A stretch of 40,784 nucleotides of DNA. Origin: a virus. Both the position numbers and the translations under genes were made by a program. Location of the stretch: positions 1 through 40,784 of the IMG/VR virus record IMGVR_UViG_3300009146_000023, one strand, 5' to 3'. The notes under the pieces were generated by a model that made no database searches, had not been told where the DNA came from, and saw only the letters and a list, made by a program, of their open reading frames with translations. Below are positions 1,655 through 33,041 of this stretch, in pieces (positions within the stretch are counted from its first letter, which is position 1; each line of letters opens with the position of its first letter).

Positions 1655-1713
1655 GAGGCGCAGCGTCGGCACCGTTCACCAACCATCAACCCGTGAGGGC
1701 AGACAGACACACC

Positions 1714-2418
1714 ATGACGAACAGCATTCGAGCAGTCGTGACCGCCAGCATGCTTCTCGCGGCCACTAGCGCCTCCGCCGACCCCGTAACGGTCGCGTCC
1801 TTCGCGGATCCGGGGGGGTCGAAGTTTATGAGCTACACCACGGACGGCACCAACGCGGGCACGACCTTCACGGGCGGGTATGACCTCCTGGGGTTGATCT
1901 TCAACATCATTGAGCCGATTGCCGCCAGTTATCCGAATGCCACGTTTACCTTCCCGACGCTGACCGCCACGGCCTTTCTTGAACCGATTCCTGGGGCAAC
2001 CCTGACACGGTTCAACGGCGGGCAGATTGACTTCTTCGACGCGCTCCTCAACCCGATTTTCCATATCGTGTTCGGGGCGGCGACCCTGACAGATCCGGGT
2101 GGGTCCATCGGCGGGAGCGTCCTGGCCCTGCAGGGGGTGAACCTGTTCCTGCCCAGCGGCGACCCGTACTTTGATCCGCAGGACTTCAGCTTCACGCTCA
2201 TTGGCCCTGAGCCGGGTGTCGCGGGCGGCCCGTCCACCGTGTCCGGGGCGCGAGCCTTGGCCCTGTCGTCTGGTACACCACAAAGCCTCTCATGGGGGTC
2301 ATCGTTCAATGCCAGTGCGGACCTGACGCAAGTGCCGGAGCCGGGGAGCATGTTCCTGCTCGGGACGGGACTCGTGGGCCTTGCCACGTCGGTTCGGCGG
2401 CGCCGGCAGAACGTCTAG
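1714..2418 (+). CDS. PEP-CTERM sorting-domain protein (secreted, exosortase substrate)
   Basis: A 234-residue exported protein. Residues 1-22 form a signal peptide (hydrophobic AVVTASMLLAA, cleavage after ASA). The body is low in charge and rich in G/T/P/F, consistent with a beta-rich extracellular domain. Residues 207-234 are a complete PEP-CTERM tripartite signal: VPEPG, a hydrophobic helix (MFLLGTGLVGLA), then RRRRQ. In known systems exosortase (EpsH/XrtA type) recognises this signal, and none is encoded here, so the host must supply it. Such genes are typical of bacterial chromosomes, not phages; this looks like a host-derived cargo gene expressed to alter the lysogen surface. ATG 1714 is chosen over the upstream in-frame GTG at 1693 because it places the signal peptide at the N-terminus. 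Confidence 0.88.
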   Translation: MTNSIRAVVTASMLLAATSASADPVTVASFADPGGSKFMSYTTDGTNAGTTFTGGYDLLGLIFNIIEPIAASYPNATFTFPTLTATAFLEPIPGATLTRFNGGQIDFFDALLNPIFHIVFGAATLTDPGGSIGGSVLALQGVNLFLPSGDPYFDPQDFSFTLIGPEPGVAGGPSTVSGARALALSSGTPQSLSWGSSFNASADLTQVPEPGSMFLLGTGLVGLATSVRRRRQNV

Positions 2419-5342: not shown

Positions 5343-5583
5343 CCACATCAAGCGCGTTCGCACGGCTGTCTGGAAGCGTGAGCGTGGGATGTGTCGGATC
5401 TGTCGGGTACGGCCAGCGAAGCACTTGCATCATTTGAAATTTCGGTCACAGGGGGGCGCACACTCGACGGCGAATACGTTGGCGGTTTGTGCGATAGACC
5501 ATCAGTTGCTCCACGCGCATCTCACACAGGTGCATGGGGCCAATGCCGACGGTGAATTGCGTTTCTCTGGGCGACCCCGATGA
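5275..5583 (+). CDS. HNH endonuclease, small
   Basis: A 102-residue HNH nuclease. The metal-binding frame is visible as CRIC, then HLHHLKFRSQGG (the catalytic H-H), an Asn in STANTLAVC, and DHQLLH. It fits the position of NinG-type or similar recombination nucleases after NinB, although the NinG-specific N-terminal zinc finger is not evident. It overlaps ninB at its start and the next HNH gene at its end (ATGA). Confidence 0.85.
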   Translation: MTAIPKPEPRIVQKLRRRAATADHIKRVRTAVWKRERGMCRICRVRPAKHLHHLKFRSQGGAHSTANTLAVCAIDHQLLHAHLTQVHGANADGELRFSGRPR

Positions 5584-6269
5584 TTGACCAGTTAGCCGAG
5601 GCAAGACCGTGCGAAGACTGCGCGACGATGTTTCGTCCCACAAAAGGAAATCTGCGACGTGGTTGGGGGCGCTTTTGTTCCCATGCCTGTTACTACCGTT
5701 GGCGGAAGCAGGACACCGCCGCCCGTCATGCGCGGGAGGGAACACCGAAAGCTTCCGTGCGCACACTGAAACCTGGAGACCCTATTCCGACTGGTACACC
5801 GCGACGGTATCGCAGTCAGCACGGATACATGGTTCTGCGGTGGAAGATTGGCAAGTATCAGTACGTGGAAGCGTATGAACATCGCGTAAAGCTCAATCTC
5901 CCTGAAGCCAGCGTGCATCATCGGAACGAAGTCAAAGACGACAACAGTGCGGAGAACCTGATTCCCTTGTCTCCGTCTGAACATGGTCGGCTTCATAATC
6001 CGAAACAACTCGACATTCAACTCGTGAGGCAACTCTATGAAGCTGGTGAGACGATGCCAGCACTAGCCGCACGATTTCAGGTCAACAGCGGCACGATTTC
6101 ACGGGCCATAGCTGAAGCGGGCGGACAAGGCCGGTCGCTCAGTTTAGCGGTGGACCTTGAGGCCGTGCGCCAACTCCGCGCGCAGGGCTTCGGTGCTCTA
6201 CGCATTGGCCGGCTCTTGAATGTTTCAACCAGTCGTATCAACAAGGCATTTCGGCAAGCGGGTCTGTAG
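5580..6269 (+). CDS. HNH homing-type endonuclease with zinc finger and two HTH units
   Basis: A 229-residue protein in three parts. First comes an N-terminal treble-clef-like finger (CEDC ... FCSHAC). Next is an HNH_3-type core (EHRVKLNL, VHHRNEVKDDNSAENLI, HGRLHN). Last are two tandem helix-turn-helix units (VRQLYEAGETMPALAARFQV and VRQLRAQGFGALRIGRLLNV). This is the architecture of free-standing phage homing endonucleases, where the HTH units give site specificity. Its N-terminal finger resembles those of the gene at 7807-8625. It overlaps the preceding HNH gene by four bases. Confidence 0.85.
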   Translation: MIDQLAEARPCEDCATMFRPTKGNLRRGWGRFCSHACYYRWRKQDTAARHAREGTPKASVRTLKPGDPIPTGTPRRYRSQHGYMVLRWKIGKYQYVEAYEHRVKLNLPEASVHHRNEVKDDNSAENLIPLSPSEHGRLHNPKQLDIQLVRQLYEAGETMPALAARFQVNSGTISRAIAEAGGQGRSLSLAVDLEAVRQLRAQGFGALRIGRLLNVSTSRINKAFRQAGL

Positions 6270-7590: not shown

Positions 7591-7799
7591 GCGCCGACGC
7601 GAAGGTGTGGCCGGATGATGGTGAGGGATGGTTCTGGAAGGGCATTCATGATGGCCCGTGTCTGCGTGATGGACATAACGACGGTGACGCGCTGAACCAC
7701 ATCCTGGCCGATATCGAAGCGTGTATGCGGCACCCCTTGCGATGGGAAATCCGTCCGTATCCCGATGGGACGTTTGGGTTGGTCGGATTCCGCGCATGA
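7587..7799 (+). CDS. Small hypothetical protein
   Basis: A 70-residue acidic protein, start overlapping the previous TGA (ATGA). It is rich in Trp, Asp and Gly, with a C-terminal beta-like segment (WEIRPYPDGTFGLVGF). No family is recognised. Its coupling places it in the replication operon. Confidence 0.65.
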   Translation: MSADAKVWPDDGEGWFWKGIHDGPCLRDGHNDGDALNHILADIEACMRHPLRWEIRPYPDGTFGLVGFRA

Positions 7800-7806
7800 C
7801 GCGACG

Positions 7807-8625
7807 ATGGCTAGTGCGTGGATTCCGCCGCTGGTTCGCCTGTGCCAGATATGCGGGGTGGAGTTTCGCCTCTGGCCCTACGAACGCGGGGTCGCCAAAT
7901 TCTGTTCCCTGGCTTGTCGCTATCAAGGCCAGCGGACGCCACGCATCTGGCGGACGTGCCGGTGCTGTGGTCGTCAGTACGGGGCTACTAATGGCGGGCC
8001 AATCTTCTGTAGTCGGCCGTGTGCGGTTCAAGGTAAACGCCGCCGGCAACCGAAAAAACCACTACATCAGCGCTGTTTCGCATTTGTGCGCGAACCGCCG
8101 CATTATTCAGGACCGGACAGTCCCTCGTGGCACGGTGGCATGTCCACATGGATCTGTCGGCGCTGCGGGGTCTCGTTCACGCGGTACGCCCGCGCGCACA
8201 GCCAGCCGCGGGTCTTCTGTTCGGTCACCTGTGCTCGTTTGACGGGCTGGAGCGACGCGACGGACATGCGGGCCCGGTATGCGTTTGAGTACGAGGCGAT
8301 TGAACGGCTGCAAGCGCAGGGGTATCACTGCGTGCGCAGTGCCGGCAGTCGGGGAACCATTGATGTCCTAGCGATGTCGCCGGACTGCATCAAGATGATT
8401 CAGGTGAAAAGTACCAAGCGGCCGTATGCGCCGCAGACGGTACGCTGGCTTATGGATGCGGTGGAAGAACTCCAGACGTTGCCGCGGTGCCCGTCTACGG
8501 AGCCGTGGTTATGGCTGAAGGTGTTGCACGGGCCCTGGCTGGAGTGGTCTGTGAGAGATTGGCCGGTTGTGCGGAGTGAATTGCGTGACCAGATTCGGCG
8601 CGAAATTCAGGAGGGACTCTCATGA
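7807..8625 (+). CDS. Zinc-finger / Hjc-like Holliday junction nuclease fusion
   Basis: A 272-residue protein with two clear halves. Residues about 13-140 carry three treble-clef-like fingers of the form CxxC ... FCSxxC. Residues about 150-235 form a PD-(D/E)XK fold: EYEAIERLQAQGYHCVRS, then GTIDVLA (catalytic Asp) and IQVKS (Q-x-K), the layout of archaeal Hjc and related resolvases. Resolution of recombination or replication intermediates is the likely role, fitting the recombination genes upstream. The start at 7807 is the first ATG that leaves the first finger intact; no strong ribosome site is visible. The multiple fingers fused to this nuclease are unusual. Confidence 0.8.
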   Translation: MASAWIPPLVRLCQICGVEFRLWPYERGVAKFCSLACRYQGQRTPRIWRTCRCCGRQYGATNGGPIFCSRPCAVQGKRRRQPKKPLHQRCFAFVREPPHYSGPDSPSWHGGMSTWICRRCGVSFTRYARAHSQPRVFCSVTCARLTGWSDATDMRARYAFEYEAIERLQAQGYHCVRSAGSRGTIDVLAMSPDCIKMIQVKSTKRPYAPQTVRWLMDAVEELQTLPRCPSTEPWLWLKVLHGPWLEWSVRDWPVVRSELRDQIRREIQEGLS

Positions 8626-14066: not shown

Positions 14067-16679
14067 ATGGGCGGGATGGGGTCGGGGACACGGAAGCGGG
14101 GAACGTTACCGGGGGGCGGGACGTGGACGAGCACGCCGCCGAGTGGGCCGCCGAGTGGGACGGTGCCGTGTCACGGGGTCGCGGTCAAAGACAAGGCGGG
14201 CGTCGAGCAGATTTTGTATCAGCCCACGGCCAAGCAGCTCCAATTTCATTTGTGCCCGGCGCGCAACATTCTCTACGGCGGCGCGGTATCGGGCGGGAAA
14301 GCGGTTCGGCTGAGCACGCCGATACCGACGCCCACGGGCTATCGGACGATGGGCGAGTTGGCCGTGGGCGATACCGTCTTCGATGAACGGGGCCAACCCT
14401 GCACGGTGACCTGGAAGTCGGATCCGCATGTGGACCCATCGGGCACCTACCGGGTGACCTTTGATGACGAGTCCGTCATTGTGGCGGGTGGTGCGCACGA
14501 GTGGCACACCTGGACGTATGTCGAACGCGAGGCCCGGCGGAAACGCAGTGCGGAGGCCCGCGCGGAGCGCCGGACGTCTCGCGCGTCCCGCAGCTTGGGG
14601 AAACGGCCGGATGTGGCCGCACGGAATCGAGCCACGGCGGTCGGGTATGCCGCGGCGCCGGTGACGGGCACGATTCGGACAACGGCGGAGATTGCCGACA
14701 CGGTGTACATCACGCGCCCGGGGACGCACCATCGGACCACGAATCACGCGATTCCGCTGGCCGGCGCGTGGCAGTGTCCCGAGGCGGTGTTACCGCTCGA
14801 CCCCTATTGCTTGGGCGTGTGGTTAGGCGATGGGAGCGCCGGGGCCCGGCATATTACGACCGACGACCCGGAAGTGCTGGCCCCGTTTGAACGGGCGGGC
14901 TTCACCTGTGTGTTTCTCGGCCGCTACCGCTGGTCGATTCATGGGTTGACCCAACCCCTTCAGGCGGCGGGCGTCTGGAAAGACAAGCATGTGCCGACGG
15001 CCTATCTCTGGGCGTCGGCGGACCAACGATTGGCGCTCCTGCAAGGGTTGATGGATAGCGATGGCTGGTGTGACCCAGACGGGGGCTGTTCCTTTGGGAG
15101 TATGAATCGGGGCCTCGCCGAGGCCGTGCGCCACCTCGCGACGAGTCTCGGGTTGAAGCCGCATACGACTGCGCGACGGGCCCGTCTGAACGGCCGGGAC
15201 TATGGCGTGTTCTATCTGGTGTCGTGGACAGGACGGGTGCCGGTGTTTCGGCTCACCCGGAAAGCGGCCCGACTCCCCACGCACGCCACGCCGCGGCCCC
15301 AGCAGCGGTACATCACGGTGTGCGAGCGGATTTCCGATGAACCGCTCCAGTGCATCGAAGTCGATAGCCCCTCGCATGAGTACCTGGTGGGTGACGCGGG
15401 GATTCCCACCCATAACTCGCATGGACTCCGCTGGGATGCGCACATGGCGTGTCTGTCGGTGCCGGGGATTCGCGTCCTCATTCTTCGCCGCACGTTTCCC
15501 GAACTGCAAGACACGCATTTGGACCGGGTGGGCGTGGAAGCGTCGAAAATGGGCGCGGAGTACCTCAAGAGCGAGTATCGCGTCCGGTTTCCCAATGGGT
15601 CCGTGGAGCAGTACGGGCATTGTGGGGACGACACGGCGGTCTCGCGCTACCTCTCCACCGAGTACGAGCGGATTTACTTTGATGAACTCGTCACGTTTAC
15701 CTTTCGGCAGTTTGTGATGATTGGCTCTCGAGCGCGGAGCACGAAGCCCGGCTATATCCCCCGCGTCTTGGCGGCCACGAATCCGGGTGGCCCCCATGCC
15801 TCATGGGTCCGCGAGTGGTTCATCAATAAAAGCGTGGATGTGCGGGAGTATCCGACGTATCGGCCCGAGGATTACGCCTACATTCCGGCGACTCTCGATG
15901 ACAACCCGTACATTGATGCGGCGGTCTACGAGCATCGGTTGCAGATGCTCCCGCCGGCGTTACGGGAGGCGTATCGGTATGGCTCCTGGGACATTTTCGA
16001 GGGGCAGTACTTTAAGGAGTGGAAGGCCCGGGACCATGTACGGACGCTCGAGGAGATTCCCCGGGAGGCGACCCGGTTCCGGGCGCTGGACTGGGGGTAT
16101 CTGCGGCCGGGCGTCTGCTTGTGGTTTGTGATGCTGCCCGATGGCCACCTCTACATAGAGGAGGAGTACGTCTTCAGCGAGACCATTGCGTCGGAGGTGG
16201 CGCGGGAGATACGGCGCCGGAGCGCGGGGCTAAAGCTGGGCTATACGGTAGCCGACCCGGCGATGTGGATTCGGGAAGGCAGTTCCGGGGAAAGCATTGC
16301 CGAGACGTTCGCGCGGAGCGGCGTCCCGTTGCTCAAGGCGGATAACGCCCGGGTGGTCGGGTGGCAGCGATTGCGGCATTGGCTGGCGCCGGCCCCGGAT
16401 GGGACGCCCTGGCTGACGGTCTCGCCGCGTTGCGCCTATCTCATTCGGACGTTGCCCTCCTTATTAATGGACGCGCATAATCCCGAAGATTGCGATTCCG
16501 ATTCCGAGGATCACGCGGCGGATGCCTGTCGCTACGGGGTGCAGTCGAGGCCGCATCCGGCGGGCGCGGCGAGCCGACCCAAGGTGAAACCCGGGACGGC
16601 GGGGGCGCTGCTCGAGGCGCTGCGCCGGCCGGGCAAGCCGAAGGTCGGGTCCACGAATGCGCGACGGGCGGTGGCCTGA
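14067..16679 (+). CDS. terL: Terminase large subunit interrupted by an intein
   Basis: An 870-residue precursor giving a 498-residue ATPase/nuclease after splicing. The N-extein (1-78) ends GGAVSGGK and the C-extein (451-870) begins SHGLRWDAH, so joining restores a Walker A motif GGAVSGGKS. Walker B is IYFDE at 536-540. The C-terminal RNase H-like nuclease shows Asp in RALDWGYL (675), VADPAMW (730) and DHAADACRY (819). The protein packages DNA into the procapsid and cuts it, docking on the portal encoded just downstream. Residues 79-450 are the intein. Without splicing, the ATPase site would be split, so packaging depends on splicing. Confidence 0.93.
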   Translation: MGGMGSGTRKRGTLPGGGTWTSTPPSGPPSGTVPCHGVAVKDKAGVEQILYQPTAKQLQFHLCPARNILYGGAVSGGKAVRLSTPIPTPTGYRTMGELAVGDTVFDERGQPCTVTWKSDPHVDPSGTYRVTFDDESVIVAGGAHEWHTWTYVEREARRKRSAEARAERRTSRASRSLGKRPDVAARNRATAVGYAAAPVTGTIRTTAEIADTVYITRPGTHHRTTNHAIPLAGAWQCPEAVLPLDPYCLGVWLGDGSAGARHITTDDPEVLAPFERAGFTCVFLGRYRWSIHGLTQPLQAAGVWKDKHVPTAYLWASADQRLALLQGLMDSDGWCDPDGGCSFGSMNRGLAEAVRHLATSLGLKPHTTARRARLNGRDYGVFYLVSWTGRVPVFRLTRKAARLPTHATPRPQQRYITVCERISDEPLQCIEVDSPSHEYLVGDAGIPTHNSHGLRWDAHMACLSVPGIRVLILRRTFPELQDTHLDRVGVEASKMGAEYLKSEYRVRFPNGSVEQYGHCGDDTAVSRYLSTEYERIYFDELVTFTFRQFVMIGSRARSTKPGYIPRVLAATNPGGPHASWVREWFINKSVDVREYPTYRPEDYAYIPATLDDNPYIDAAVYEHRLQMLPPALREAYRYGSWDIFEGQYFKEWKARDHVRTLEEIPREATRFRALDWGYLRPGVCLWFVMLPDGHLYIEEEYVFSETIASEVAREIRRRSAGLKLGYTVADPAMWIREGSSGESIAETFARSGVPLLKADNARVVGWQRLRHWLAPAPDGTPWLTVSPRCAYLIRTLPSLLMDAHNPEDCDSDSEDHAADACRYGVQSRPHPAGAASRPKVKPGTAGALLEALRRPGKPKVGSTNARRAVA
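14301..15416 (+). mobile_element. Class 3 (WCT) intein with LAGLIDADG endonuclease in TerL
   Basis: A 372-residue element. It starts with Ala, not Cys or Ser (AVRLSTPIPTPTGY, block A), has block B GGAHEW with His 66 and Trp 68 (intein numbering), block F CIEVDSPSHEYLV with Cys 351, and block G IPTHN with Thr 370, His 371 and Asn 372, followed by Ser+1. The Trp-Cys-Thr triplet with a non-nucleophilic first residue is the diagnostic of class 3 inteins, in which the block F cysteine makes the first attack. Between the splicing halves lie two LAGLIDADG-type motifs (CLGVWLGDG and LLQGLMDSDG), so the element can probably home. Confidence 0.9.
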
Positions 16680-17026
16680 TGGGGCCGTTCCGTTACGGGC
16701 GCTGGGTCATCACGTTTCGGAACGTGCCGCCGGCCAATCGCTTGTCTTGGCCGCGGTGGTGGATTGCGATGACGCCCGAGGCGTCCCACCTCTGGGCTAG
16801 TTCCACGTTTGGCTCCTGCCGGCGGTATGCCGAACTGGAACCGCTGGATGACGCCCTCGCGCCCGGCTGGCCGACCTTGCCGTGGACGGAGGCGCAGGCC
16901 CGGGCGGTGACGCTCGCGGCGCTGACGGCGTTGATTGAGGCGTTGCAATCCGAGTCGATTACGGCGAATAGCGACGAGCCCCCACAACTTGAGGCGTGGG
17001 TGGATGAAGTCACCGAAGGAACCTAA
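16679..17026 (+). CDS. Hypothetical protein between terminase and portal
   Basis: A 115-residue protein, Trp-rich in the N-terminal half (YGRWVITFRN, PRWWIAMTPE), with a C-terminal helix (VTLAALTALIEALQSE) and acidic tail. It is coupled by TGATG to terL and by TAATG to the portal. Unrecognised; possibly a head-assembly accessory. Confidence 0.65.
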   Translation: MGPFRYGRWVITFRNVPPANRLSWPRWWIAMTPEASHLWASSTFGSCRRYAELEPLDDALAPGWPTLPWTEAQARAVTLAALTALIEALQSESITANSDEPPQLEAWVDEVTEGT

Positions 17027-19101
17027 TGGCTGTAGATATTCTCCCGTTGTCGTCCAGCGACCTCGCGCGGTGGCGGACCCGCATGGACCGCGCCCAGCGC
17101 GAATCGGATACCTACAAGAAAAGCTGGGAAAACAATCTGGACGCGTATCGCATGAAGGGGCTGCCGATTGCGCCCTTGGCCGATACCGCGCAGGTGCCCA
17201 AGGATTTCGCGAACGTCAATCAGAAGATTGCGCAGTTGTTCTTCGAGACGCCGGAGGTGCATATCACCCCCGATGCGCAACTCCTGGCCGGCAAGGAAGA
17301 CGCCGCGCTGATGTTCCAGTCCGTGCTCAACAAGAAGCTGGGGCCGAAGGGCGCCGATGTCAAACGCACGTTCGAGAAGATGCTGTTTGATGTCCTGTGC
17401 CCGGCGGGCATGGGCTGCTCCAAGATTGGGTACACGAACGTGGTGGCGGGGATGATTCCCGCGCCGATGGGCCCGCCGGCCCCCGTGATGGACCCGATGA
17501 CGGGGCAGCCGCAGGTGGACCCGCGGACGGGCCAGCCCGTGATGCAGCCGACGATGGTCGAGGTGCCCAACATCAAACGCGAAGAATGGTTCTGGACCCG
17601 CTTTTCCCCCTTGAAGCTGCTCGTGCCCCACGATTTTCGCGACAACGATTTCGACAAGGCGCCGTGGCTGGGGATGAAGGGCACCAAACCGCTCCGCGTG
17701 GCGAAGCGCGATTGGAACCTGCCCCCCGATTTCAAGAGCACGGTGGACATTGACAAGCATGTGCTCAACCCTGACCCCGAATCGCGTGGCGATGCGACGG
17801 AGGATCTGGTGGAGTACGTGGAGATTTGGTATCAGACCGCACTCTACGACGACGAGGTGCTGGATCCGCTCCGGTATCGGGTGCTCGTCCTGGTGGACGG
17901 GCTCGATGACGGGCCAGTGGAGCATCGCGATTCCCCGTATCAGAAGCTTGAGGAGGACGGCTTCGTGAATGAACGGGTCAGCATGATTGGCAATCCGATT
18001 CATATCCTCCAGATTCGGGATCTGGCGGATAGTGCCTATCAACCCTCCGACTGCCAGATCACGCGCACGCTCGTGCAGGAAGTAAACACGTTTCGGACGC
18101 AGCTCCTCCGGGTGCGCGATGCGAACCGGCCGCTGCGGATCTACGACGACCAGATGGACCCGGCCACGGTGGAGAAGATGGCGAACGGGGAGACGGGGAG
18201 TTACATCCCGGTCGCGAACTACGACCCCGCCCGGCCGCCCGTGATGGAAGTGACCAAGGCGACTCCGCTGCGCGAGAACTACACAAGCCAGCAGATTATC
18301 GAAGGGGACATCAACGAAGCGTGGGCGATGGGGCCGAGTCAACGGGGGATGCCGGAACAGAGCGATGCGACGGCGACCGAGATTCAGACGCGGACCAATA
18401 GCGCCTCGGTGCGGCTGGAGAAGGAACGCGCCGCGGTCATTGCCTGTTTCACGAAAGGCGTCGAGTCGAAGTTTGCGCCGCTCCTCGTCCAGTTCTTTGA
18501 CCCCACCGATGCGGTGGAGCTGTTGGGGCAGGACGGCACGCAACGCTGGATGCAGTGGGACAAGGATGCGATTTCCGTGCGGTGGGGCGTGACGGCGAAG
18601 CCCGATTCCGGCGTCTACCTCGATGCGGATACGGAGCGCCGGGTCGCAATGAACGGCTACAACTTCCTGCGGAAAGACCCGCGCGTGGAACCGGACGCGC
18701 TGTTGACCTGGACGATGCGGAAGATGGGGATGAACCCGCAGCAGATGTTGGCGCCGCCGGCGCCGCCCCCAGGCCCGCCGCCGCCCAATGTGAATGTGCG
18801 CGTGCTGATGGAGGATCTGATTGGCCCAGCGGCGCCCATCGCCCTCAAGATCCTGCAAAGCGCCGGATACGAACTCACGGATCAGGATTTGGCCGTCGTG
18901 CAGCAGTCGGCTGCCGCGCTCATGGCCCAGCAGGGGATTCTCTACCCGCCGCGTCCGCCCACGGCGCCGCCCCCAGGGCAACCGGGGCAGCCCCAGGCGC
19001 ACGGCGGGATGTCCGACCAGACCGACCTCTTGAATAAACATGCGGCGGAGGAAACCGGGGGGATGCCCGGGATGCCGGCGCAAGGACAGATGGTGCAGTG
19101 A
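17026..19101 (+). CDS. Portal protein
   Basis: A 691-residue protein in the portal position after terL. It has a long alpha/beta body (early WENNLDAYRMKG, then VNQKIAQLFFETP) and a helical stretch QGMPEQSDATATEIQT-like (RGMPEQSDATATEIQTRTN, about residues 443-461) followed by AAVIACFTKGVESKFAPL, typical of portals of short-tailed phages. The C-terminal 130 residues are proline/glutamine-rich, with APPAPPPGPPPP. It forms the dodecameric ring through which DNA enters. The TGA overlaps the next ATG. Confidence 0.85.
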   Translation: MAVDILPLSSSDLARWRTRMDRAQRESDTYKKSWENNLDAYRMKGLPIAPLADTAQVPKDFANVNQKIAQLFFETPEVHITPDAQLLAGKEDAALMFQSVLNKKLGPKGADVKRTFEKMLFDVLCPAGMGCSKIGYTNVVAGMIPAPMGPPAPVMDPMTGQPQVDPRTGQPVMQPTMVEVPNIKREEWFWTRFSPLKLLVPHDFRDNDFDKAPWLGMKGTKPLRVAKRDWNLPPDFKSTVDIDKHVLNPDPESRGDATEDLVEYVEIWYQTALYDDEVLDPLRYRVLVLVDGLDDGPVEHRDSPYQKLEEDGFVNERVSMIGNPIHILQIRDLADSAYQPSDCQITRTLVQEVNTFRTQLLRVRDANRPLRIYDDQMDPATVEKMANGETGSYIPVANYDPARPPVMEVTKATPLRENYTSQQIIEGDINEAWAMGPSQRGMPEQSDATATEIQTRTNSASVRLEKERAAVIACFTKGVESKFAPLLVQFFDPTDAVELLGQDGTQRWMQWDKDAISVRWGVTAKPDSGVYLDADTERRVAMNGYNFLRKDPRVEPDALLTWTMRKMGMNPQQMLAPPAPPPGPPPPNVNVRVLMEDLIGPAAPIALKILQSAGYELTDQDLAVVQQSAAALMAQQGILYPPRPPTAPPPGQPGQPQAHGGMSDQTDLLNKHAAEETGGMPGMPAQGQMVQ

Positions 19102-20226: not shown

Positions 20227-20279
20227 CTTTGTGCGCCCCCCTTTTCGCGGACGGGCCGCGACACCAACCCGGAGTGACC

Positions 20280-21197
20280 ATGACTGACGACCTGACGGAT
20301 ACCACGAGTGGCGACATCGGTTCAACGACATCCTTTGAAGATGCGTTGAATGCGGCGGCCCCGCCAGCCCCGCCCTCCTCTGACACGGCTCCCGCGGCGG
20401 CGGCGACACAGCCGGCCGATGTCCAGACGAGTGTTCCCAGTACCGAGCCGGGGCATCTGCCCTTCCCTCGACATAAGGAAATTCTGGAACACGCGCGCAC
20501 CGAGGCGCGCGAGGCCGCGATCCGTGAACAGCAAGAGGCATTCCGCCAGCAATACGGCTGGGTGCCTCATGCCGACGCGGATCCGCTGAACTGGCTGCAA
20601 CAGCAATTCGTCCCGCATCTGCTGAAGCATCCCCAGTACGCCCAGCAATACCGGACGTTCCTCGCGCAACAACTCGCCGGCTTGCGGCAATCCGCGCAGG
20701 CTGAGCAGGAACCGCAACCCGACCTCCAGGCGGAGAACGGGGCGCTCGTCTATTCGGCCCAGCAGCAACGCGCGTGGGCCGAGTGGAATACCCGGCAGAT
20801 CAAAGCCGAGTATGCGCGCGACATTGCGGACCTCAAGGCCGACAAGCAGGCCCGGGAGCAGTACGCCCAGCAACAGCAGGTGTACGCCCGGGTCGAGCAG
20901 GAAGCCTCTCGCATCCTCGGACGCCTCCAGACCTATCCCGGTTTCACGGAACACGAAGCCGAAATCACCGCGTTGTACGCCAGTGATCCGTCGTTGACGC
21001 CGGAGCAGGCGTACATCGAGGTGGTGATGCCGAAGTTTGCGCAGACCAGCGCCGGCCGAGTCCTGACCCAACTCACGGACAAAGCTCACGCGGGGACGGC
21101 GAATCCCAGCCGCGCGGGCAGCAGCACGCCGGGCGATTACAAAAAGATGGACCTCCCGGCGGTGTTCGCCGCATTAGCGCCACAACATGGGTTGTAG
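20280..21197 (+). CDS. Scaffolding-like protein
   Basis: A 305-residue protein with the properties of a capsid scaffold. It has an acidic/Ala/Pro-rich N-terminus, a long Gln/Ala/Glu-rich helical centre (about residues 85-220, EAREAAIREQQEAFRQQYG and ADKQAREQYAQQQQ), and a short C-terminal region with DYKKMDLPAVFAAL, the type of end that contacts the capsid protein. It lies between portal and capsid genes. GGAG precedes ATG 20280. Confidence 0.78.
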   Translation: MTDDLTDTTSGDIGSTTSFEDALNAAAPPAPPSSDTAPAAAATQPADVQTSVPSTEPGHLPFPRHKEILEHARTEAREAAIREQQEAFRQQYGWVPHADADPLNWLQQQFVPHLLKHPQYAQQYRTFLAQQLAGLRQSAQAEQEPQPDLQAENGALVYSAQQQRAWAEWNTRQIKAEYARDIADLKADKQAREQYAQQQQVYARVEQEASRILGRLQTYPGFTEHEAEITALYASDPSLTPEQAYIEVVMPKFAQTSAGRVLTQLTDKAHAGTANPSRAGSSTPGDYKKMDLPAVFAALAPQHGL

Positions 21198-21213
21198 GCG
21201 CGGAGTCTGACCT

Positions 21214-22188
21214 ATGGCTGATCCGAATCTCGGACAACTCGCCGCCTCCGTGTATGAGGCGCATTTCGGCACGAAGCCGGAAGACAACATCTTCAACAGT
21301 GAATGGCTCATCAACCGGCTCTCCAAGAACGCGAAGGAAGAAACGGACGGCGGCCGACTGATTGAAGACACGCTGGAGTATGCGGAGAACACGACGTTCC
21401 GCAGCTACGGCGAACTGGAAGAACTGGATACGACCCGCATCGACGTGTTCGACGCGGCGCAGTATCACTGGAAGATCATCGCCGGCACCGTCGTCTATTC
21501 CGACCTGGAGAAATTGCGGGCGGCGGCGGCCAACCGGAAGTTCGACGTGATTGCGGCCAAATTGGAGAACGGGAAGAACTCCCACATGGCCGTCATCAAC
21601 CGGCAGGCGCACAGCGACGGCACGGGGAACAGCGGCAAGAACATTGGGGGCACGACGCTCCTGATTTCGAGCACGCCAACCACGGGCACGGTGGGCACCA
21701 TCAGCCGCTCCGCGTTTTCCTTCTGGCGCAACCGGCAAGTCGTCGGGACCAAGAGCGCCAGCAACTTCGACAACCTCCGCTCCGCGATGACCACGCTCTA
21801 CAACCAGTGCAGCAGCGGCGCGTTTGCGGAGCATCCCACCTTCGGGTGGAGCAATCAGACCGTCTTCGAGGGGTACGAGGGACTCATGGCCCCGCTGGAG
21901 CGGTTCAGCAGCGACGACAAGAGCAAGAGCGCGGACCTGGGCTTCGAGAACTCCATCATTCAGTTCAAGGGCATGAAGCTCGCGTTTGATGAGGATGCCC
22001 CGGCCGGCGAGCTGCGGATGGCGAACAACAAGAACCTCAAGCTCCGGTATCTCAAGGGTGGCTGGAACAAGATGTATCCCGGCGTGGATCCGGCGAACCA
22101 GTTGTCCAACATCCACAAGCTCGCGTCATTCTGCAACCTGTCCACCAACAACTCCCGGCGCCTCGGCGTCGTGACTGCGATCACGTAG
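21214..22188 (+). CDS. Major capsid protein
   Basis: A 324-residue protein following the scaffold. The sequence has the features of an HK97-fold capsid protein: an N-terminal arm, RLIEDTLEYAENTTFRSYGE, DAAQYHWKIIAGTVVYSDLE (spine-helix-like), DNLRSAMTTLYNQC, and a C-terminal IQFKGMKLAFDEDAPAGELR segment followed by LKLRYLKGG. It should be the most abundant virion protein. The assignment rests on position, size and pattern. Confidence 0.85.
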   Translation: MADPNLGQLAASVYEAHFGTKPEDNIFNSEWLINRLSKNAKEETDGGRLIEDTLEYAENTTFRSYGELEELDTTRIDVFDAAQYHWKIIAGTVVYSDLEKLRAAAANRKFDVIAAKLENGKNSHMAVINRQAHSDGTGNSGKNIGGTTLLISSTPTTGTVGTISRSAFSFWRNRQVVGTKSASNFDNLRSAMTTLYNQCSSGAFAEHPTFGWSNQTVFEGYEGLMAPLERFSSDDKSKSADLGFENSIIQFKGMKLAFDEDAPAGELRMANNKNLKLRYLKGGWNKMYPGVDPANQLSNIHKLASFCNLSTNNSRRLGVVTAIT

Positions 22189-22199
22189 GAGACACCAAC

Positions 22200-22934
22200 A
22201 TGCCGCATCTTTCAGGCGCCGGCGCCGCGATTGGGCACACGGTGCTCTCCTCACGGACGAGTGCCGAACATGCCCTGGGGGCCAAGTACGAAACCAAAGA
22301 CGGTCGGACCTACCGCTACGTCAAAGCAGGTGCCACGCTCGTGGTGGGCAACATGCTGCAGGGGCCGGCGGAGAACACCGACCACGACACGTTGACCGTC
22401 GCGGCTGATGCCGCGCAGGGCGCGACACAGGTCACGCTCACGATGGGCGCGACCGGCGTGACGGCGAATGACTACGGCGGCGGGTATCTCCTCGTGGATA
22501 CCACGCCGGGGCTTGGCTACGCCTATCGCATCAGCAGCCATCCCACGGCGGCCAATGCGGCGCCGTGCGTGATCACGCTCGAACCGGAAGATGGCCTGCA
22601 AGTGGCGTTGACCGCGGCGGGCTCGAAATGCACGCTCGTGAGAAATCCGTACAACGGCGTCATTCAGACGCCGATTACGACGCTCACGGGGGCGTGTGTC
22701 GGCGCGGCGGTCTATCCGATTCCCAGCGGGGAGTACGGCTGGATTCAATCCGGGGGCGTGACCTCGGTGCTCATCGCCGGGACGCCCGGCGTGGGGCAAG
22801 CCGTCGTGGTGCCGGGCACCGTGGCGGGCTGCGTGGTGGTGGATGGCGCGACGGCGCCCACGGATGTCGTGGGTCGGATGCTCGTGACGGGTGTGGCCGG
22901 CAAGTGTCTGCCGGTTGCTTTGACCATTGACTGA
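22200..22934 (+). CDS. Head decoration-like protein
   Basis: A 244-residue, glycine/threonine/valine-rich beta protein placed right after the capsid gene. It shows GRTYRYVKAGATLVVGNMLQ near the N-terminus, the type of opening found in capsid-stabilising (DUF2190-like) proteins, and a repeated beta pattern thereafter. A decoration or cement protein is the best guess; it could be a surface protein with an Ig-like fold. Confidence 0.65.
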   Translation: MPHLSGAGAAIGHTVLSSRTSAEHALGAKYETKDGRTYRYVKAGATLVVGNMLQGPAENTDHDTLTVAADAAQGATQVTLTMGATGVTANDYGGGYLLVDTTPGLGYAYRISSHPTAANAAPCVITLEPEDGLQVALTAAGSKCTLVRNPYNGVIQTPITTLTGACVGAAVYPIPSGEYGWIQSGGVTSVLIAGTPGVGQAVVVPGTVAGCVVVDGATAPTDVVGRMLVTGVAGKCLPVALTID

Positions 22935-22943
22935 GTGAACTCC

Positions 22944-22971
22944 CGGGGGGTCGGGCCTCGGCCCCCCGTTT
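22944..22971 (+). terminator. Hairpin after the decoration gene
   Basis: CGGGGGG (22944-22950) pairs with CCCCCCG (22962-22968), followed by TTTCT. A stable stem with a poor T-run, it is probably a partial terminator or mRNA-stabilising end that sets capsid messages apart from the genes downstream. Confidence 0.6.
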
Positions 22972-22987
22972 CTGAAGGAACGTTTGT

Positions 22988-23686
22988 ATGAGCTTCGACC
23001 GAATCCGTGAGCGGGAAGCCGAACTTGAGCGCAAGGATCAGGACCGCCGGTTGACCGAAGCCGCGAAGGACGCGATTGCGGCGCAGAATCCGGTGCTCGA
23101 CACCATCAACAAGATGGTCGAGGTGATGACCGCTGACCGGCAGCAGAGCCAGAACGCGATGCTGCAAGCGCAACTCGACGCCATGAAGGCGCAGTACGAG
23201 CTGCAAGCCAAAGGGAATGCGGATGCGGTGCGCCGGTCCCTCCAGCCGAGTAACGACACGCATCCGGCCATCAGCGCCTACAGCTATCCCGAAGGGAACG
23301 TCTTGCGTCCGAAGCCCAAGCTGACGCGCGAATCGTATTGGGTCGGGCATCGCATCAGCGAAGACGAACTCAATCCACTAGAGATTGAGTTACTCAATCA
23401 GGTGAAGGCGGGCCGCTATCACGGCGGCAAGTGGCTCGTGAAGGAAAACACCGACGATACGGGCACGACACGCCGGGTCGAGGTGTGGTTTCCCACGAAG
23501 GATATTGACCATCGGATGGAAGTGCCGCACTCGGCGGATCCCGTGATGACGGGCATGGCGTTGATGCTCCAGGAGATGGTGACGGGGCAAGCCCCGGTCG
23601 CGAGTCTCGGCCCGCTCCATGCGCGCATTCAGGAACTCGAAGCGCAACTTGCGGTCAAGCAGGACATGGCGGCGCTCGCTGTCTGA
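22988..23686 (+). CDS. Virion-operon coiled-coil protein
   Basis: A 232-residue protein. Residues 1-75 are a charged coiled coil (RIREREAELERKDQDRRL). A middle domain (about 95-190) contains ESYWVGHRISEDELNPLEIE and KWLVKENTDDTGTTRRVEVW, followed by a helical tail. It seems a conserved structural-operon protein of short-tailed phages, function unknown to me. A GAAGGAA site precedes the ATG. Confidence 0.68.
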   Translation: MSFDRIREREAELERKDQDRRLTEAAKDAIAAQNPVLDTINKMVEVMTADRQQSQNAMLQAQLDAMKAQYELQAKGNADAVRRSLQPSNDTHPAISAYSYPEGNVLRPKPKLTRESYWVGHRISEDELNPLEIELLNQVKAGRYHGGKWLVKENTDDTGTTRRVEVWFPTKDIDHRMEVPHSADPVMTGMALMLQEMVTGQAPVASLGPLHARIQELEAQLAVKQDMAALAV

Positions 23687-23701
23687 GCCGGTGGAGGGTC
23701 G

Positions 23702-24661
23702 ATGACCCTGAGCGAGATTCTTCAGGCGGCGTACGCGAAGTTGAATTACGTCAGTGCGCCGCCCGCGGCGGTCACGACCCGGTTCACGCAATCCCTCAAT
23801 GCGTGGCATCGGCGCATCCTCGCGCAGCCGGGCATGGGCCTCGTGCGTGATGCGGTCTATACGCTGACCACGGTGGACGGCACGGCGGAGTATGCGCTCC
23901 CGCCCACGGTGGGCCGCCTCATCGGCATTACGCAGATCAGTCAAGGCATTCCGCTCGTGGAGCGGAGCCTGGATTGGTTCCGCCGGCATGACCCCCAACA
24001 GACGAGCATCGGCGCCCCGTCCTCGGTCTATATCCCTCTCGGCGAACGGCACGTTCAGGCGCAGCCCGCCGACGCCAGCGAACTCTTTGTGGACTCCACG
24101 AGCGCCAGCGATACGGGCACGGCGTTCTGCGACGTGACGCGCATCGGCGGCTATCCGCGTAGCCTGAGTGCCGTGATGACCGGCGCGACGGCGGTCAGTC
24201 TCGGGGCCGCGGCCGTGGATGCGATTTGGATTAACAAGTTCTATCTCTCGGTGCCGGCGGTCGGGACCGTCACGCTCCACGAAGACATCGAAGGCGGCGT
24301 CGAGTTGGCGCGGATTCCCATTGGGCAGACCTATGCGCGGTATCCGTGGATTCGGTTGTGGCCGACGCCGGCCGGCGAAGACTATGCGATTGATTACACG
24401 CGCACGCTCGTGGATCTGGTGAACGGCAGCGATGAACCCTTGTGGCCCGCAGACTTTCATTGGCTCCTCGTCGCGGCGATTGAGTACGAGGAATTTGTGA
24501 AGACCGATGACAGTCGAGCGCGCACGCGGTTGCAGGAAATCGACGCCGGGCTGCGGGATTTGAAATCGTGGCTGTTCAATCGCCCAGGGACGGTCTACGT
24601 GCCGGGGCAGCGCGAGCCGGGCCGGTCCTCGCTCGGCCCGTGGTTTCCGGCGGGCACCTAG
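23702..24661 (+). CDS. Head-tail adaptor-like protein
   Basis: A 319-residue protein starting with a helical bundle (MTLSEILQAAYAKLNYV, TRFTQSLNAWHRRILAQPG) and continuing with a beta domain (TLTTVDGTAEYALPPTVGRL). It ends in helices that contain FHWLLVAAIEYEEFVKTDDS and RLQEIDAGLRDLKSWL. This helix-beta insert-helix plan is that of ring-forming adaptors between portal and tail in short-tailed phages. It directly abuts the tail hub gene. Confidence 0.68.
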   Translation: MTLSEILQAAYAKLNYVSAPPAAVTTRFTQSLNAWHRRILAQPGMGLVRDAVYTLTTVDGTAEYALPPTVGRLIGITQISQGIPLVERSLDWFRRHDPQQTSIGAPSSVYIPLGERHVQAQPADASELFVDSTSASDTGTAFCDVTRIGGYPRSLSAVMTGATAVSLGAAAVDAIWINKFYLSVPAVGTVTLHEDIEGGVELARIPIGQTYARYPWIRLWPTPAGEDYAIDYTRTLVDLVNGSDEPLWPADFHWLLVAAIEYEEFVKTDDSRARTRLQEIDAGLRDLKSWLFNRPGTVYVPGQREPGRSSLGPWFPAGT

Positions 24662-26584
24662 ATGGGGCGGCAGTCCGAGACGGCGATTGCGATTCTGGAT
24701 GCGCGCGGGGGACGCAATGGGGGCGACCCGCCGCTGTCCTTGCCGGATACCCAGCTCGCTGAAGCGATGAACGTCGATTTTTGGGAAGGGACGCTCGCGC
24801 ACAAACGGCTCGGCGCCGAGGCCGTGAGTCTGACGTGCAGTAGTGGGGGCCCGTTCGCCTTGGTGGCGACGTTGCTCTCACATTTGCCCACGGCGGATCT
24901 GACGGCGTTGGAACTGTGGGCCTTCGATATCAGCGCCCAAGTCTTTCGGTTGGCGGCGTCTACGTCCTGGGTGGAACTCACGCCTAGCGATGCGATAGAG
25001 GCGCCGTATTACGACGTGACGGGGGCGAGCGCGCAGGGCTGGCTCTTTCTTTGTTACAACTCGGCCGTCAATCGCCTGCACGTCTGGGATGGAACGAGTC
25101 TCCGGCGCGTCGGCTTGAGCACCCCGGGGGCCGCGCCGACCTTGGCGACTATCGTCGGTTCGGGCCCGACGTTCACGCGCCATTACCGCGTGCGGTGGGC
25201 GCATATCGTGGGCGCGGACACGATACGGCGGTCTGAAGCGGGCGCGTCCGCCAGTCATTCCATCGCGGCACAGGTAGGCATCCGGGTCACGCGCCCCACG
25301 GCGGCCGGCGACGGGGAAACGCATTGGGAAGTCGAGTATGCGGAGGCGGCGCTCGGGCCGTGGTATCGCGCCGCGCAAGTCGCGATTGGGACGACGACGT
25401 ATGACGACACCGCGGCGCAGATAGACACGACGAATCTCACCGCCTCGGCGGGTGCGCATACGGCGCCGACCTCGTGGAAGTACATCGTGCATGACCAGGG
25501 GCGGCTCTTGGGCGCAGGGGCGTGGGAAACGCCGGGGCGCCACTCGCGGGTCTGGTTCACGGCGCAGCTCGGCTCCTCCGAGATGGGCGACCTCGAGCGC
25601 GTGCCGATGACGACGGATTTCCAGAACTGGGTGGATCTGGACGAGCACGATGGCGGGTTCATTACCGGCTTTGGCGGGCCAATGGACGGCGCGGTCTACG
25701 TGTTCAAGTACCGCCAGATTTGGAAACTGGTCCGCACGGGCAATGCGACGGCGCCGTATCGGCCCTATCCGCTGACAAAGGCGATTGGGTCCGTGCGGCA
25801 GCACGCCATCGTCATGGCGGAGGATGAACGGGGCAACCCGGCCATCTATTTCCTGAGCCATCGCGGGCCGATGCGCCTCGGCGGCGGCGGGCTCGAGTAT
25901 CTCGGCAACGACGTGGAAGACCTGTGGGAATCGTTCAACCCGGAAGCGACCCAGGTCACGGCGCACGGGTTGTACTACCCGGCGAAGCATCAGATTTGGT
26001 GGTGGATTACGCTCCTCGGCCAGAACGCACCCTCAATGAAGCTCGTCTTCGATGTGCGGTTGGGGCGCACGACGGCAGAGGGCGTGGGCATGGGCTGGAG
26101 TCAACACGCGGGACGCTCGGCGGCGACCTATACGGGGGTGCTCTTTGCGAACACGCTCGGCGCCACGATGTCCCGGGACTTGAAACCGTATGTCAGCACG
26201 CGGGACGCGGTGGCGATTCTGAAGTGCGACACGGGCACCGACGACAACGGCGAGACGTTTCAGGCGTACGTGACGACGGCGGCGCTCCCGATTGGGGGGC
26301 TGCTGCGGCAAGGGCAAGTCGGGCAACCCGTGCTCGTCGCGAATGCGGCGAGTGGCGTGTCGATTCAGGCCACGGTGAGTCGGGATTTCGGCGTCGAGAC
26401 GAAGACGGGGAGTGTCGTGTTGACGCCGGCCGGGAGTGAGTCGCGCGTGCTCCCGCAGTTTGAGGCGTTGGAGTTGGCGGGCGTGACGACGGTGCAATAC
26501 ACGATTGGGGATGCGGCGGCGGTGAATAACGCCTGGACGCTGGATGCCTTCGTGATTCCCTACACCGTGCAGGAGCCCCGATGA
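24662..26584 (+). CDS. Tail hub/nozzle-like beta-propeller protein
   Basis: A 640-residue, beta-rich protein. Repeated segments with aromatic-glycine patterns (LELWAFDISAQVFRL, GWLFLCYNSAVNRLHVWDG, AVYVFKYRQIWKLVRTG, HGLYYPAKHQIWWWITLLG) suggest a propeller, as in P22 gp10 and T7 gp12-type nozzle proteins. Position after the adaptor fits. It would form the tail tube in a short-tailed virion. The next gene overlaps its TGA. Confidence 0.65.
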   Translation: MGRQSETAIAILDARGGRNGGDPPLSLPDTQLAEAMNVDFWEGTLAHKRLGAEAVSLTCSSGGPFALVATLLSHLPTADLTALELWAFDISAQVFRLAASTSWVELTPSDAIEAPYYDVTGASAQGWLFLCYNSAVNRLHVWDGTSLRRVGLSTPGAAPTLATIVGSGPTFTRHYRVRWAHIVGADTIRRSEAGASASHSIAAQVGIRVTRPTAAGDGETHWEVEYAEAALGPWYRAAQVAIGTTTYDDTAAQIDTTNLTASAGAHTAPTSWKYIVHDQGRLLGAGAWETPGRHSRVWFTAQLGSSEMGDLERVPMTTDFQNWVDLDEHDGGFITGFGGPMDGAVYVFKYRQIWKLVRTGNATAPYRPYPLTKAIGSVRQHAIVMAEDERGNPAIYFLSHRGPMRLGGGGLEYLGNDVEDLWESFNPEATQVTAHGLYYPAKHQIWWWITLLGQNAPSMKLVFDVRLGRTTAEGVGMGWSQHAGRSAATYTGVLFANTLGATMSRDLKPYVSTRDAVAILKCDTGTDDNGETFQAYVTTAALPIGGLLRQGQVGQPVLVANAASGVSIQATVSRDFGVETKTGSVVLTPAGSESRVLPQFEALELAGVTTVQYTIGDAAAVNNAWTLDAFVIPYTVQEPR

Positions 26585-27069
26585 AACATCGGGAACAACT
26601 CGGGCGCCTGAGTATGCCGCTCGTGGATGAATTTGATGAGATGGAAAGTCTCGTCTCGACGTGGTTGCGGATGGAGCATCACGACGATGGCCGGCATAAA
26701 GCCATCAGTGTCGATGCCCTCACTCTCGGCGGCGCGTCGGTCATTGCCCCGTCCGCGATTCTGACGCCGGATGTGGTGACGAGCAATAAGAACAACTATG
26801 CGCCGGGGATTGCGGGCAAGCGCGTCGTGCGCAGCGCCACGAATGCGTCCCGCAACTTTACCGGATTGGAAGAAGGCACGGCGGGGCAAGTGCTGGATTG
26901 GTGGAACGTGGGCGCGCAGGACGAAGTGTTCATCCATGCGAGTAGTTCCTCAGACGCGCCGAAGCGGTTTCTGTGTCCCGGTAGCGTGGACTTCACGCTC
27001 AACGCCAATGACGGCATGACCCTCTGGCGCGACGGAACGAGCAACCGTTGGCGCATTCGCGAACGGTAA
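26581..27069 (+). CDS. Small virion protein
   Basis: A 162-residue protein with an N-terminal helix (EFDEMESLVSTWLRMEHHDDG), the short GGASVIAPSAILTPD, and a C-terminal beta domain (RFLCPGSVDFTLNANDGMTLWRDG, RWRIRE) typical of small fibre or tail-surface proteins. Coupled to the hub gene by four overlapping bases. Confidence 0.62.
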   Translation: MKHREQLGRLSMPLVDEFDEMESLVSTWLRMEHHDDGRHKAISVDALTLGGASVIAPSAILTPDVVTSNKNNYAPGIAGKRVVRSATNASRNFTGLEEGTAGQVLDWWNVGAQDEVFIHASSSSDAPKRFLCPGSVDFTLNANDGMTLWRDGTSNRWRIRER

Positions 27070-27075
27070 AGGACG

Positions 27076-28245
27076 ATGCCCACACTCACGGATAGTCCGA
27101 TGTATCGCACGTTGGCGCAACGGCTGCTGGGGGGCGGTGGCTTTCAACCGCCCGCGCCAGGGGCTCCGCCGCCCGCGCCCGTGGACGCCCCGTTGCAGCC
27201 GCACACGCCGGAGCCGGTCCCCCCCGTGGCGGCGACCCCGCCGCTGCCGCCGGATGGCAACACAGGGATTACGGGGGGGCTCCCGCCGGGGACGGTGCCG
27301 GTAGACCCGGCCGCGCCGCCGATGCCGAACCAGGATTTACCCGTGCCCCCGGCGCCGCCCGCGCCGAATCAAGAGGTGCCCGCGGCCCCCACGGTGCCGG
27401 AACCGCCGCCGCCTCCACCTCCACCTCCGCCGGTCGTACCGCCCGTGCCCGCGCCCGTCGATGAGGCCGCGCAACGGGCCGCGTTTGAACGGTTGATGCA
27501 GGCGTTGATGCAGAGCACGGGACAAGCGCCCGTCACGCCCGGCGTGCCGGCGGCGCTACCTGGGCCTCCGGTGGGTGTCCCCCCACCGCCGCCGGGGGCC
27601 GTGGCGCCGCCGAGTGGCCGCTTTGTCCAAGCGGGCCATTCCGGCAGTGCCCCGCCGGGATTCTCGAATACGAAATGGGACGACCCGAATCATCAGACGC
27701 CGAAATACATCTGGGGCCGGGCGATGAACGCGGCGCAAGGGGAACTCCAAAAACTGCGCGGCGATGAAGCGGGGTCGAAAGCGTTTCTCCAACAGCTCGC
27801 CACGGAACTGAAACCGCAATTCGAGAAGGCCGGCGCGGAAGTGCTCGAGATTTCCGGCGAAGGCATGATCATCGACATGCACGACGGCGGCGGCCCGCAT
27901 CACGTAGACCTCGCGCAGGACGTGGGCGGCAAGAACGCCACGCAGTGGCACACCCCCGATGACGATGCGAAGAAGCCGGGCCGCGGCGGGATGGGCGGCG
28001 GCGGTGTCGGGGCGGGCGCTGGTGGCGGCAATTTCCTGTCCATGCTCGCGCCGGGCCTCATGGCGGGGCAGGGCGGGAACTTCAGTCAAGCTGGACTCCT
28101 CGCGCAGCGGGCGCTTGGCGGCGGCTTCGGCGGCTTTGGGGCCGGCGGTGACGGCGCCAAGGGCGCGCAAGAGGGCACGAAGAAACAAGGGATGCGCGAA
28201 CTGTTGATGCAGCGCATGGGAGGCCGACGTGGCGCTACTCGCTAA
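27076..28245 (+). CDS. Proline-rich virion protein with a C-terminal glycine tail
   Basis: A 389-residue protein in three parts. Residues about 20-195 are an extreme proline linker (including PPPPPPPPPPVVPPVPAP). About 205-300 is a folded domain (NTKWDDPNHQTPKYIWGRAM, then EVLEISGEGMIIDMHDGGG). The end is glycine-rich with membrane-interacting character. Such proteins occur among internal or ejected virion proteins; no enzymatic motif is seen. It overlaps the next gene by 17 bases. Confidence 0.6.
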   Translation: MPTLTDSPMYRTLAQRLLGGGGFQPPAPGAPPPAPVDAPLQPHTPEPVPPVAATPPLPPDGNTGITGGLPPGTVPVDPAAPPMPNQDLPVPPAPPAPNQEVPAAPTVPEPPPPPPPPPPVVPPVPAPVDEAAQRAAFERLMQALMQSTGQAPVTPGVPAALPGPPVGVPPPPPGAVAPPSGRFVQAGHSGSAPPGFSNTKWDDPNHQTPKYIWGRAMNAAQGELQKLRGDEAGSKAFLQQLATELKPQFEKAGAEVLEISGEGMIIDMHDGGGPHHVDLAQDVGGKNATQWHTPDDDAKKPGRGGMGGGGVGAGAGGGNFLSMLAPGLMAGQGGNFSQAGLLAQRALGGGFGGFGAGGDGAKGAQEGTKKQGMRELLMQRMGGRRGATR

Positions 28246-29122
28246 TTCCGTCCAACCGAAACCGCTCCTCACGGCGCCCAAGCCGCTCGCAGCGCCGCTG
28301 GCGACGGCGAAGCCCTTGCCGGCCCCGTTGCCCGGCGCGAAGCCGTTACCCGAACCCGTGAAGGGCAACCTGCCCGTCCAGACGCCCGTAGCCCCGAAGC
28401 CGACTGCGCCGCGTCCCCCGAACATCGGGGCGCTGCAATCCGCGTTGGGGCAAGTGGCGCCCGGGTCATCCGCGCACACCGCGCTCACGAAGCAATTGGC
28501 GGCGGCGCAAGCGATGCCCGCGGCCCCTGGTACGGCGGCCCCGGGGAACATGCAGCAGATTTTCACGCAGCGGCTCAATGCCCTGATGAACCAGGATCCG
28601 AACGCGCTGACGGCGAATGACCCGCGCGTGCGCGACCAGATTGCCGCGGCCGACATGGGACTCACGCGCGCCAGCGAGCAACGGCAAGCGCAGCTCGCGG
28701 AACAGATGGCGACCGAAGGCTTAGGCGATTCCGGCGCGCTCCAGGCGGGGACCGAACGCGCGATGCAGGATCAGGGCGAAGCGTCCGCCGTGATGCGCTC
28801 GCAAATCATGGCGCAGCAACTCCAAGCGCAACGTGATCAGGTGATGCAGGCGTTGCAGCTCGGCGGCGCCACGCTGGACGCCGAGAAACAACGGGCACTC
28901 GCGAAGCAACTCGCCTCGATTGATGCGGCGATTCGTCGGCAGGGGCTCGATGTGCAGTCCAAGCTCGGACAGGGCCAACTCAATCTGGGCTTCTTCAATG
29001 CGCTCAATCAGGCGCAGCAGTACAAGCAGGGTCTTTCGCAAGCGAACCAGCATTTCTACGACACCCTCGGCTGGGACATGGGGAAATTCCAGACCATGTA
29101 CAACCAGGACTTGTACAAGTAA
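28229..29122 (+). CDS. Internal virion-like helical protein
   Basis: A 297-residue protein. A Pro/Ala/Lys repetitive N-terminus (about 1-65, repeats of KPLPAPLPGA type) is followed by a long helical region (about 105-270) rich in Gln and Ala (ASEQRQAQLAEQMATEGLGD, SQIMAQQLQAQRDQVMQ). Related helical proteins in short-tailed phages are ejected with DNA. The start is a GTG with GGGAGG upstream. Its TAA is in the same frame as the following gene. Confidence 0.62.
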   Translation: MALLANSVQPKPLLTAPKPLAAPLATAKPLPAPLPGAKPLPEPVKGNLPVQTPVAPKPTAPRPPNIGALQSALGQVAPGSSAHTALTKQLAAAQAMPAAPGTAAPGNMQQIFTQRLNALMNQDPNALTANDPRVRDQIAAADMGLTRASEQRQAQLAEQMATEGLGDSGALQAGTERAMQDQGEASAVMRSQIMAQQLQAQRDQVMQALQLGGATLDAEKQRALAKQLASIDAAIRRQGLDVQSKLGQGQLNLGFFNALNQAQQYKQGLSQANQHFYDTLGWDMGKFQTMYNQDLYK

Positions 29123-29140
29123 AGGAAGGCGGGTAGCTCT

Positions 29141-30097: not shown

Positions 30098-30105
30098 GGT
30101 GAGCG

Positions 30106-32820: not shown

Positions 32821-33041
32821 CTGATGACCCAGAGGATGCACGGACCATCGTGGATGACGGCGTGACATACGAAGTCGTGTGGTCGGGATCCTTATCTCGG
32901 CAGAACGTCTGCACGGGCCTCTCGTCGCCCTACCTGCAACGGCGGGAACGGGTGGTGGGCTGGGCGGTGTCGCAGGACGACGACCGCAACAAACGGGGAC
33001 GCCCGCCCCGGCTCCCGGTCCTCGCGCTTGTCTCGCCATGA
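32817..33041 (+). CDS. Small hypothetical protein
   Basis: A 74-residue protein linking two large virion genes, coupled by ATGA at both ends. The N-terminal half is a plausible beta unit (DDGVTYEVVWSGSL, YLQRRERVVGWAV); the C-terminal part is basic. Unrecognised. Confidence 0.5.
   Translation: MTDDPEDARTIVDDGVTYEVVWSGSLSRQNVCTGLSSPYLQRRERVVGWAVSQDDDRNKRGRPPRLPVLALVSP

Follow-up and report, generated by a model that had tools for sequence, protein, structure and literature searches.

The large terminase subunit (TerL) gene in the viral DNA analysed here, a stretch of 40,784 nucleotides referred to as the window, raises the question of what kind of segment splits its Walker A motif, YGGAVSGGK/S, exactly at the Lys/Ser bond. 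The reading frame at 14067-16679 was identified as TerL by matches to PHROG families 979, 15, and 2, all of them large terminase subunits; a Pfam Terminase_3 match (E 1.5e-4) fell under the family cut-off. Translation of positions 14301-15416 gave 372 residues without a stop, from AVRLSTPIPT to GIPTHN, lying within a single 870-residue frame between NILYGGAVSGGK and SHGLRWDAHM. The segment has Ala at position 1, and so lacks a Cys, Ser, or Thr nucleophile there, and ends in Asn372 followed by Ser+1. The evidence described below makes it almost certain that the segment is a full-length class 3 intein, with a LAGLIDADG endonuclease inserted in its HINT domain, located at the Walker A Lys/Ser bond of TerL.

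Features of the intein-containing TerL gene, with positions numbered in the window
Feature	Position	Strand	Evidence or remark
TerL precursor gene, 870 aa (N-extein + intein + C-extein)	14067..16679	+	single ORF
N-extein, 78 aa, C-terminal end NILYGGAVSGGK (Walker A through Lys)	14067..14300	+	aligned with the uninterrupted Walker A motif in L002
Class 3 intein, 372 aa, Ala1...His371-Asn372	14301..15416	+	TerL residues 79-450; profile, alignments, AlphaFold model
Block B His66-Glu67-Trp68 (catalytic His and WCT Trp)	14496..14504	+	88/88; counterparts in MchDnaB1: His65/Trp67
Block C LAGLIDADG motif LGVWLGDG, intein residues 171-178 (Asp177)	14811..14834	+	Asp177 in 83/88
Block E LAGLIDADG motif LLQGLMDSDGW, intein residues 246-256 (Asp254)	15036..15068	+	Asp254 in 87/88
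Block F Cys351, predicted initiating nucleophile	15351..15353	+	88/88; aligned with block F Cys of 6rix/6bs8
Block G Thr370-His371-Asn372	15408..15416	+	Thr370 and Asn372 in 88/88; His371 in 85/88
Ser+1, predicted second nucleophile (Walker A Ser)	15417..15419	+	+1 residue in relatives: Ser 44/88, Thr 44/88
C-extein, 420 aa, remaining ATPase and nuclease domain of TerL	15417..16679	+	60% identity to L002/L003

The ends of the segment were examined with a profile that combined 39 other inteins of viral origin, the window's own sequence being excluded. All positions of this profile (1-367 of 367) matched TerL ORF residues 79-450, precisely the boundaries proposed, with 429 bits and an E value of 6e-127 for a nominal million sequences. 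Because the match spans the entire profile, the ends are fixed by independent sequences and not by eye alone, and the placement of a 372-residue element precisely at the Lys/Ser bond, as proposed in a sequence-only reading of this DNA, was exact. Among general domain models, Pfam LAGLIDADG_3 exceeded its cut-off on the block E region, NCBIfam gave only weak matches at the endonuclease level, and a Hom_end_hint search (own record) returned no match, as did the controls.

Class 3 inteins are defined by a WCT motif comprising Trp at B:12, Cys at F:4, and Thr at G:5 (PMC5050341), a motif confined to this class (PMC7664689), and their splicing mechanism and catalytic triad have been published (PMC7664689, PMC5222942). 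When compared with solved structures by phmmer, the intein matched MchDnaB1 (6rix, 6riy) and MsmDnaB1 (6bs8) at 1.5e-18 to 2.5e-15, and in these alignments Trp68, Cys351, and Thr370 were paired with the WCT residues of the class 3 DnaB1 inteins 6rix and 6bs8. The catalytic set reported for MchDnaB1, Cys124-His65-Thr143 plus Trp67 (PMC7664689), corresponds to Cys351, His66, Thr370, and Trp68 of the window intein, which thus possesses the class 3 WCT set along with the catalytic His two residues N-terminal of the Trp. The class 3 assignment made earlier from Ala1, Trp68, Cys351, and Thr370 was borne out, since all four aligned in class 3 positions; the alignments could have moved the first residue or the block F Cys, and both stayed in place.

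Structural modeling agreed with this assignment. AlphaFold2, provided with an alignment of 40 inteins (the window intein plus viral-contig sequences), yielded an intein model with a mean pLDDT of 94.3 and a pTM of 0.90. Foldseek comparison of the model retrieved the class 3 DnaB inteins 6bs8, 6rix, and 6riy with TMt of 0.78-0.84, consistent with a HINT fold, and also PI-SceI, which combines HINT and LAGLIDADG domains (TMq 0.64-0.70), and I-DmoI-type endonucleases. The LAGLIDADG helices occupied residues 168-177 and 240-254 of the model. Both LAGLIDADG motifs had been described as retained, and their acidic residues, Asp177 and Asp254, are indeed intact.

We placed the intein among its relatives with a viral-contig scan that used ten class 3 inteins as queries and returned at least 570 confirmed matches; a search by the window intein alone had found one locus, and the wider set needed an alignment query. 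The 88 inteins analysed consist of the best 80 of these at least 570 viral-contig matches, phage records, and the window intein, a sample picked by class 3 likeness from which class 1 use of the site cannot be read. His66, Trp68, Cys351, Thr370, and Asn372 were present in every member of this sample. In contrast to the sequence-only reading, which took class 3 inteins to be a small group, at least 570 were confirmed in one viral scan, and all 88 examined carried the His, Trp, Cys, and Thr residues. Position 1 was variable (Ala in 44, Leu in 15, Gly in 9, Met in 8, and others in the remainder), which indicates that it is not the nucleophile in this group. The residue preceding the intein was Lys in 83 of the 88, and 29-31 inteins, including that of the window and depending on the pattern used, reside in a P-loop of the GGxxGGGK type. 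About 30 TerLs with the GGxxGGGK[ST] motif therefore have class 3 inteins at the same Lys/Ser or Lys/Thr bond, and the window intein is not new in kind. Five of the surveyed loci (L016, L015, L001, L027, and L028) encode TerL or terminase-like proteins with the class 3 residues in inteins that start with Leu or Val rather than Ala. A TerL of the same family in L167 (ORF from 367) has an intact Walker A motif and two other inteins of class 1 type that start with Cys, with the junctions KYQ/CFKTGTEIL...VSGQ/SAEF and GIGH/CVPFGDVL...LSGN/SWVKK.

Intein-free relatives were found among viral contigs. The TerLs of L002 and L003 are 60% identical to that of the window over the C-extein and have an uninterrupted Walker A motif, GGAAGGGKSHAIRW; the spliced window TerL aligned with L002 at 59% identity over 461 residues, gapless at the junction. 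A contiguous Walker A motif was present in 80 of 80 sampled TerL relatives (loci from the TerL alignment search), a count that used a widened pattern, with L101, outside that pattern, reading GGAAGGAKS. Alignment to intact TerL showed that the spliced protein has Walker A, Walker B, and the nuclease-domain acidic residues, and that the conserved TerL Asp and Glu columns are retained in the C-extein.

Three other readings of the segment were weighed. Since the reading frame is continuous through it, the segment could in principle be a regular domain inserted in TerLs of this family, but the 59-60% identical relatives and the 80 of 80 sampled members have contiguous Walker A motifs, confirming its expected absence from close TerL relatives, and the same segment also occurs in unrelated proteins, such as a DnaB-like helicase and a Cas4-like exonuclease. 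The empty-site relatives refute this interpretation, to which we assign a negligible probability. The combination of Ala1 and Ser+1 is as compatible with a class 2 intein, in which there is no position-1 nucleophile and Ser+1 directly attacks the N-terminal junction, as it is with class 3. We ruled out class 2, however, because the full WCT set, restricted to class 3 (PMC7664689), is present together with the catalytic His, as in 88 of 88 examined inteins; this alternative is accordingly very improbable.

Loss of splicing through degeneration of the intein, with terL then either dead or rescued by N- and C-terminal cleavage only, was given slightly more weight than class 2 and is likewise quite unlikely. 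Such decay has precedent in class 3, as the Arth_1007 intein of Arthrobacter FB24 has been described as a pseudogene (PMC3196547), but in the window the splicing residues are all intact, neither a stop nor a frameshift is present, and the conserved TerL residues occur in both extein halves. We therefore retained the assignment as a full-length class 3 intein at the Walker A Lys/Ser bond.

Splicing of such an intein would be expected to start with activation of Cys351 by His66, after which an attack by Cys351 on the peptide bond between Lys and Ala1 would produce an intein-held branched thioester. The N-extein would then pass to Ser+1, cyclisation of Asn372 would release the intein, and ligation of the exteins (...GGAVSGGKS...) would yield an active packaging ATPase with its P-loop restored. 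From the residues present we infer that the intein splices, and its location in the P-loop suggests that DNA packaging would depend on that reaction. If the endonuclease is active, terL alleles without the intein would be cleaved during co-infection and would receive a copy of it; the intact LAGLIDADG acids point to probable continued mobility. Conditional splicing, for example by oxidation of the block F Cys, could make the element a switch that times DNA packaging rather than a parasite only, and the stress-sensitive mycobacterial DnaB intein offers a precedent (PMC6195587); we consider this extension improbable, though less so than the alternatives above.

The homing site was compared with the nearest empty site, that of L002, which shares 27 of 40 bases with the window junction (12/20 and 15/20 per side). 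Published endonuclease pairs show empty-site matches of 75% and 100% (PMC5050341), and in light of these values the L002-type site may not be a target of the window endonuclease. A search of a phage collection with the first 25 kb of the window found no near-identical phage DNA that would supply a close allele lacking the intein or point to a host. A genome scan with the C-extein alignment detected only distant TerLs, the best being 37-42% identical and located in Clostridia/Oscillospiraceae MAGs.

The GC content of the intein, 0.66 (0.78 at third positions), matches that of the exteins (0.64-0.67 and 0.79-0.81), so its composition gives no hint that it arrived very recently. It sits on a long branch (1.08) of the 88-intein tree with no well-supported sister. 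TerL inteins of the GGxxGGGK-type P-loop cluster in this tree (11 changes versus 25.9 in shuffles), yet do not form one clade. Intein similarity to the window correlated with TerL similarity over 75 loci (rho 0.67), versus a rho of 0.08 within 26 related TerLs, where intein identity (∼37-46%) was generally greater than TerL identity (∼21-37%). The clustering and the identity pattern fit movement of inteins among TerL genes, although the data are too noisy to prove it and provide no date.

Comparison with characterized inteins places the element among familiar ones. MchDnaB1 (6rix) and MsmDnaB1 (6bs8) share with it the HINT fold, the His, Trp, block F Cys, and block G Thr residues, a position 1 without a nucleophile, and a C-terminal THN, whereas they are mini-inteins without an endonuclease and reside in a replicative helicase rather than in TerL. 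Kelley et al. (2016) described mycobacteriophage TerL inteins, several of class 3; the two commonest, TerL1-a and TerL1-b, lie in the Walker A region, as does the window intein, with TerL1-a at Lys/Thr (PMC5050341). In that study, splicing in a reporter was demonstrated for five terminase inteins and cleavage of an intein-free allele for two, including TerL1-b; TerL1-b of Baka did both (PMC5050341). Mycobacteriophage TerL1 is of Terminase_1 type, in contrast to the GGxxGGGK[ST] type of the window, and sequence identity is low. The TerL intein of L011 (Constella, cluster J-like) has the class 3 residues and, judging from identical match coordinates rather than an alignment, is probably Baka TerL1-b. 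Two annotated phages, Microcystis phage Mwe-JY05 (L007) and Gordonia phage YungMoney (L008), have TerL inteins of class 3 with Ala1, LAGLIDADG motifs, and insertion at the Walker A Lys/Ser bond; these inteins are 38-42% identical to the window intein, but the TerLs belong to other lineages. The likewise annotated Thiohalocapsa phage LS06-2018-MD04 has the same class 3 arrangement at Lys/Ser but with Leu1. Three uncultivated viral contigs known from metagenomes only (L017, L027, and L028) have the TerL insertion at GGxxG[GC]GK/S, with TerLs 27-37% and inteins 43-46% identical to those of the window; Leu occupies position 1 in L027 and L028.

Other genes of the phage were also noted. A 241-residue protein encoded at 1693-2418 (+), near phage recombination genes, begins with a segment resembling a signal peptide and carries at its C-terminus a PEP-CTERM sorting signal (Pfam PF07589, 4e-7), which is of bacterial exosortase type. 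It had no relatives in the phage collection or viral contigs, and it hints at an exosortase-bearing host. An HNH/HTH endonuclease gene is located at 5580-6269 (+), and the product of 7765-8625 (+) combines weak HNH matches with an archaeal-type Hjc resolvase domain. When the larger ORFs of the structural region (17026-19101 and 20229-35254, +) were scanned against PHROG, the only matches were a major head protein (21214-22188) and a virion-protein-like ORF (36583-37311); the phage is distant from known ones.

The window intein is thus an element of a known kind, present here in a further phage lineage, and changes no established view. As a clean and complete case, it extends the pattern in which class 3 inteins recur at the P-loop Lys/Ser or Lys/Thr bond of phage packaging ATPases, and the survey, in which the class 3 group is large in uncultivated phages, helps in choosing natural class 3 inteins and homing sites.
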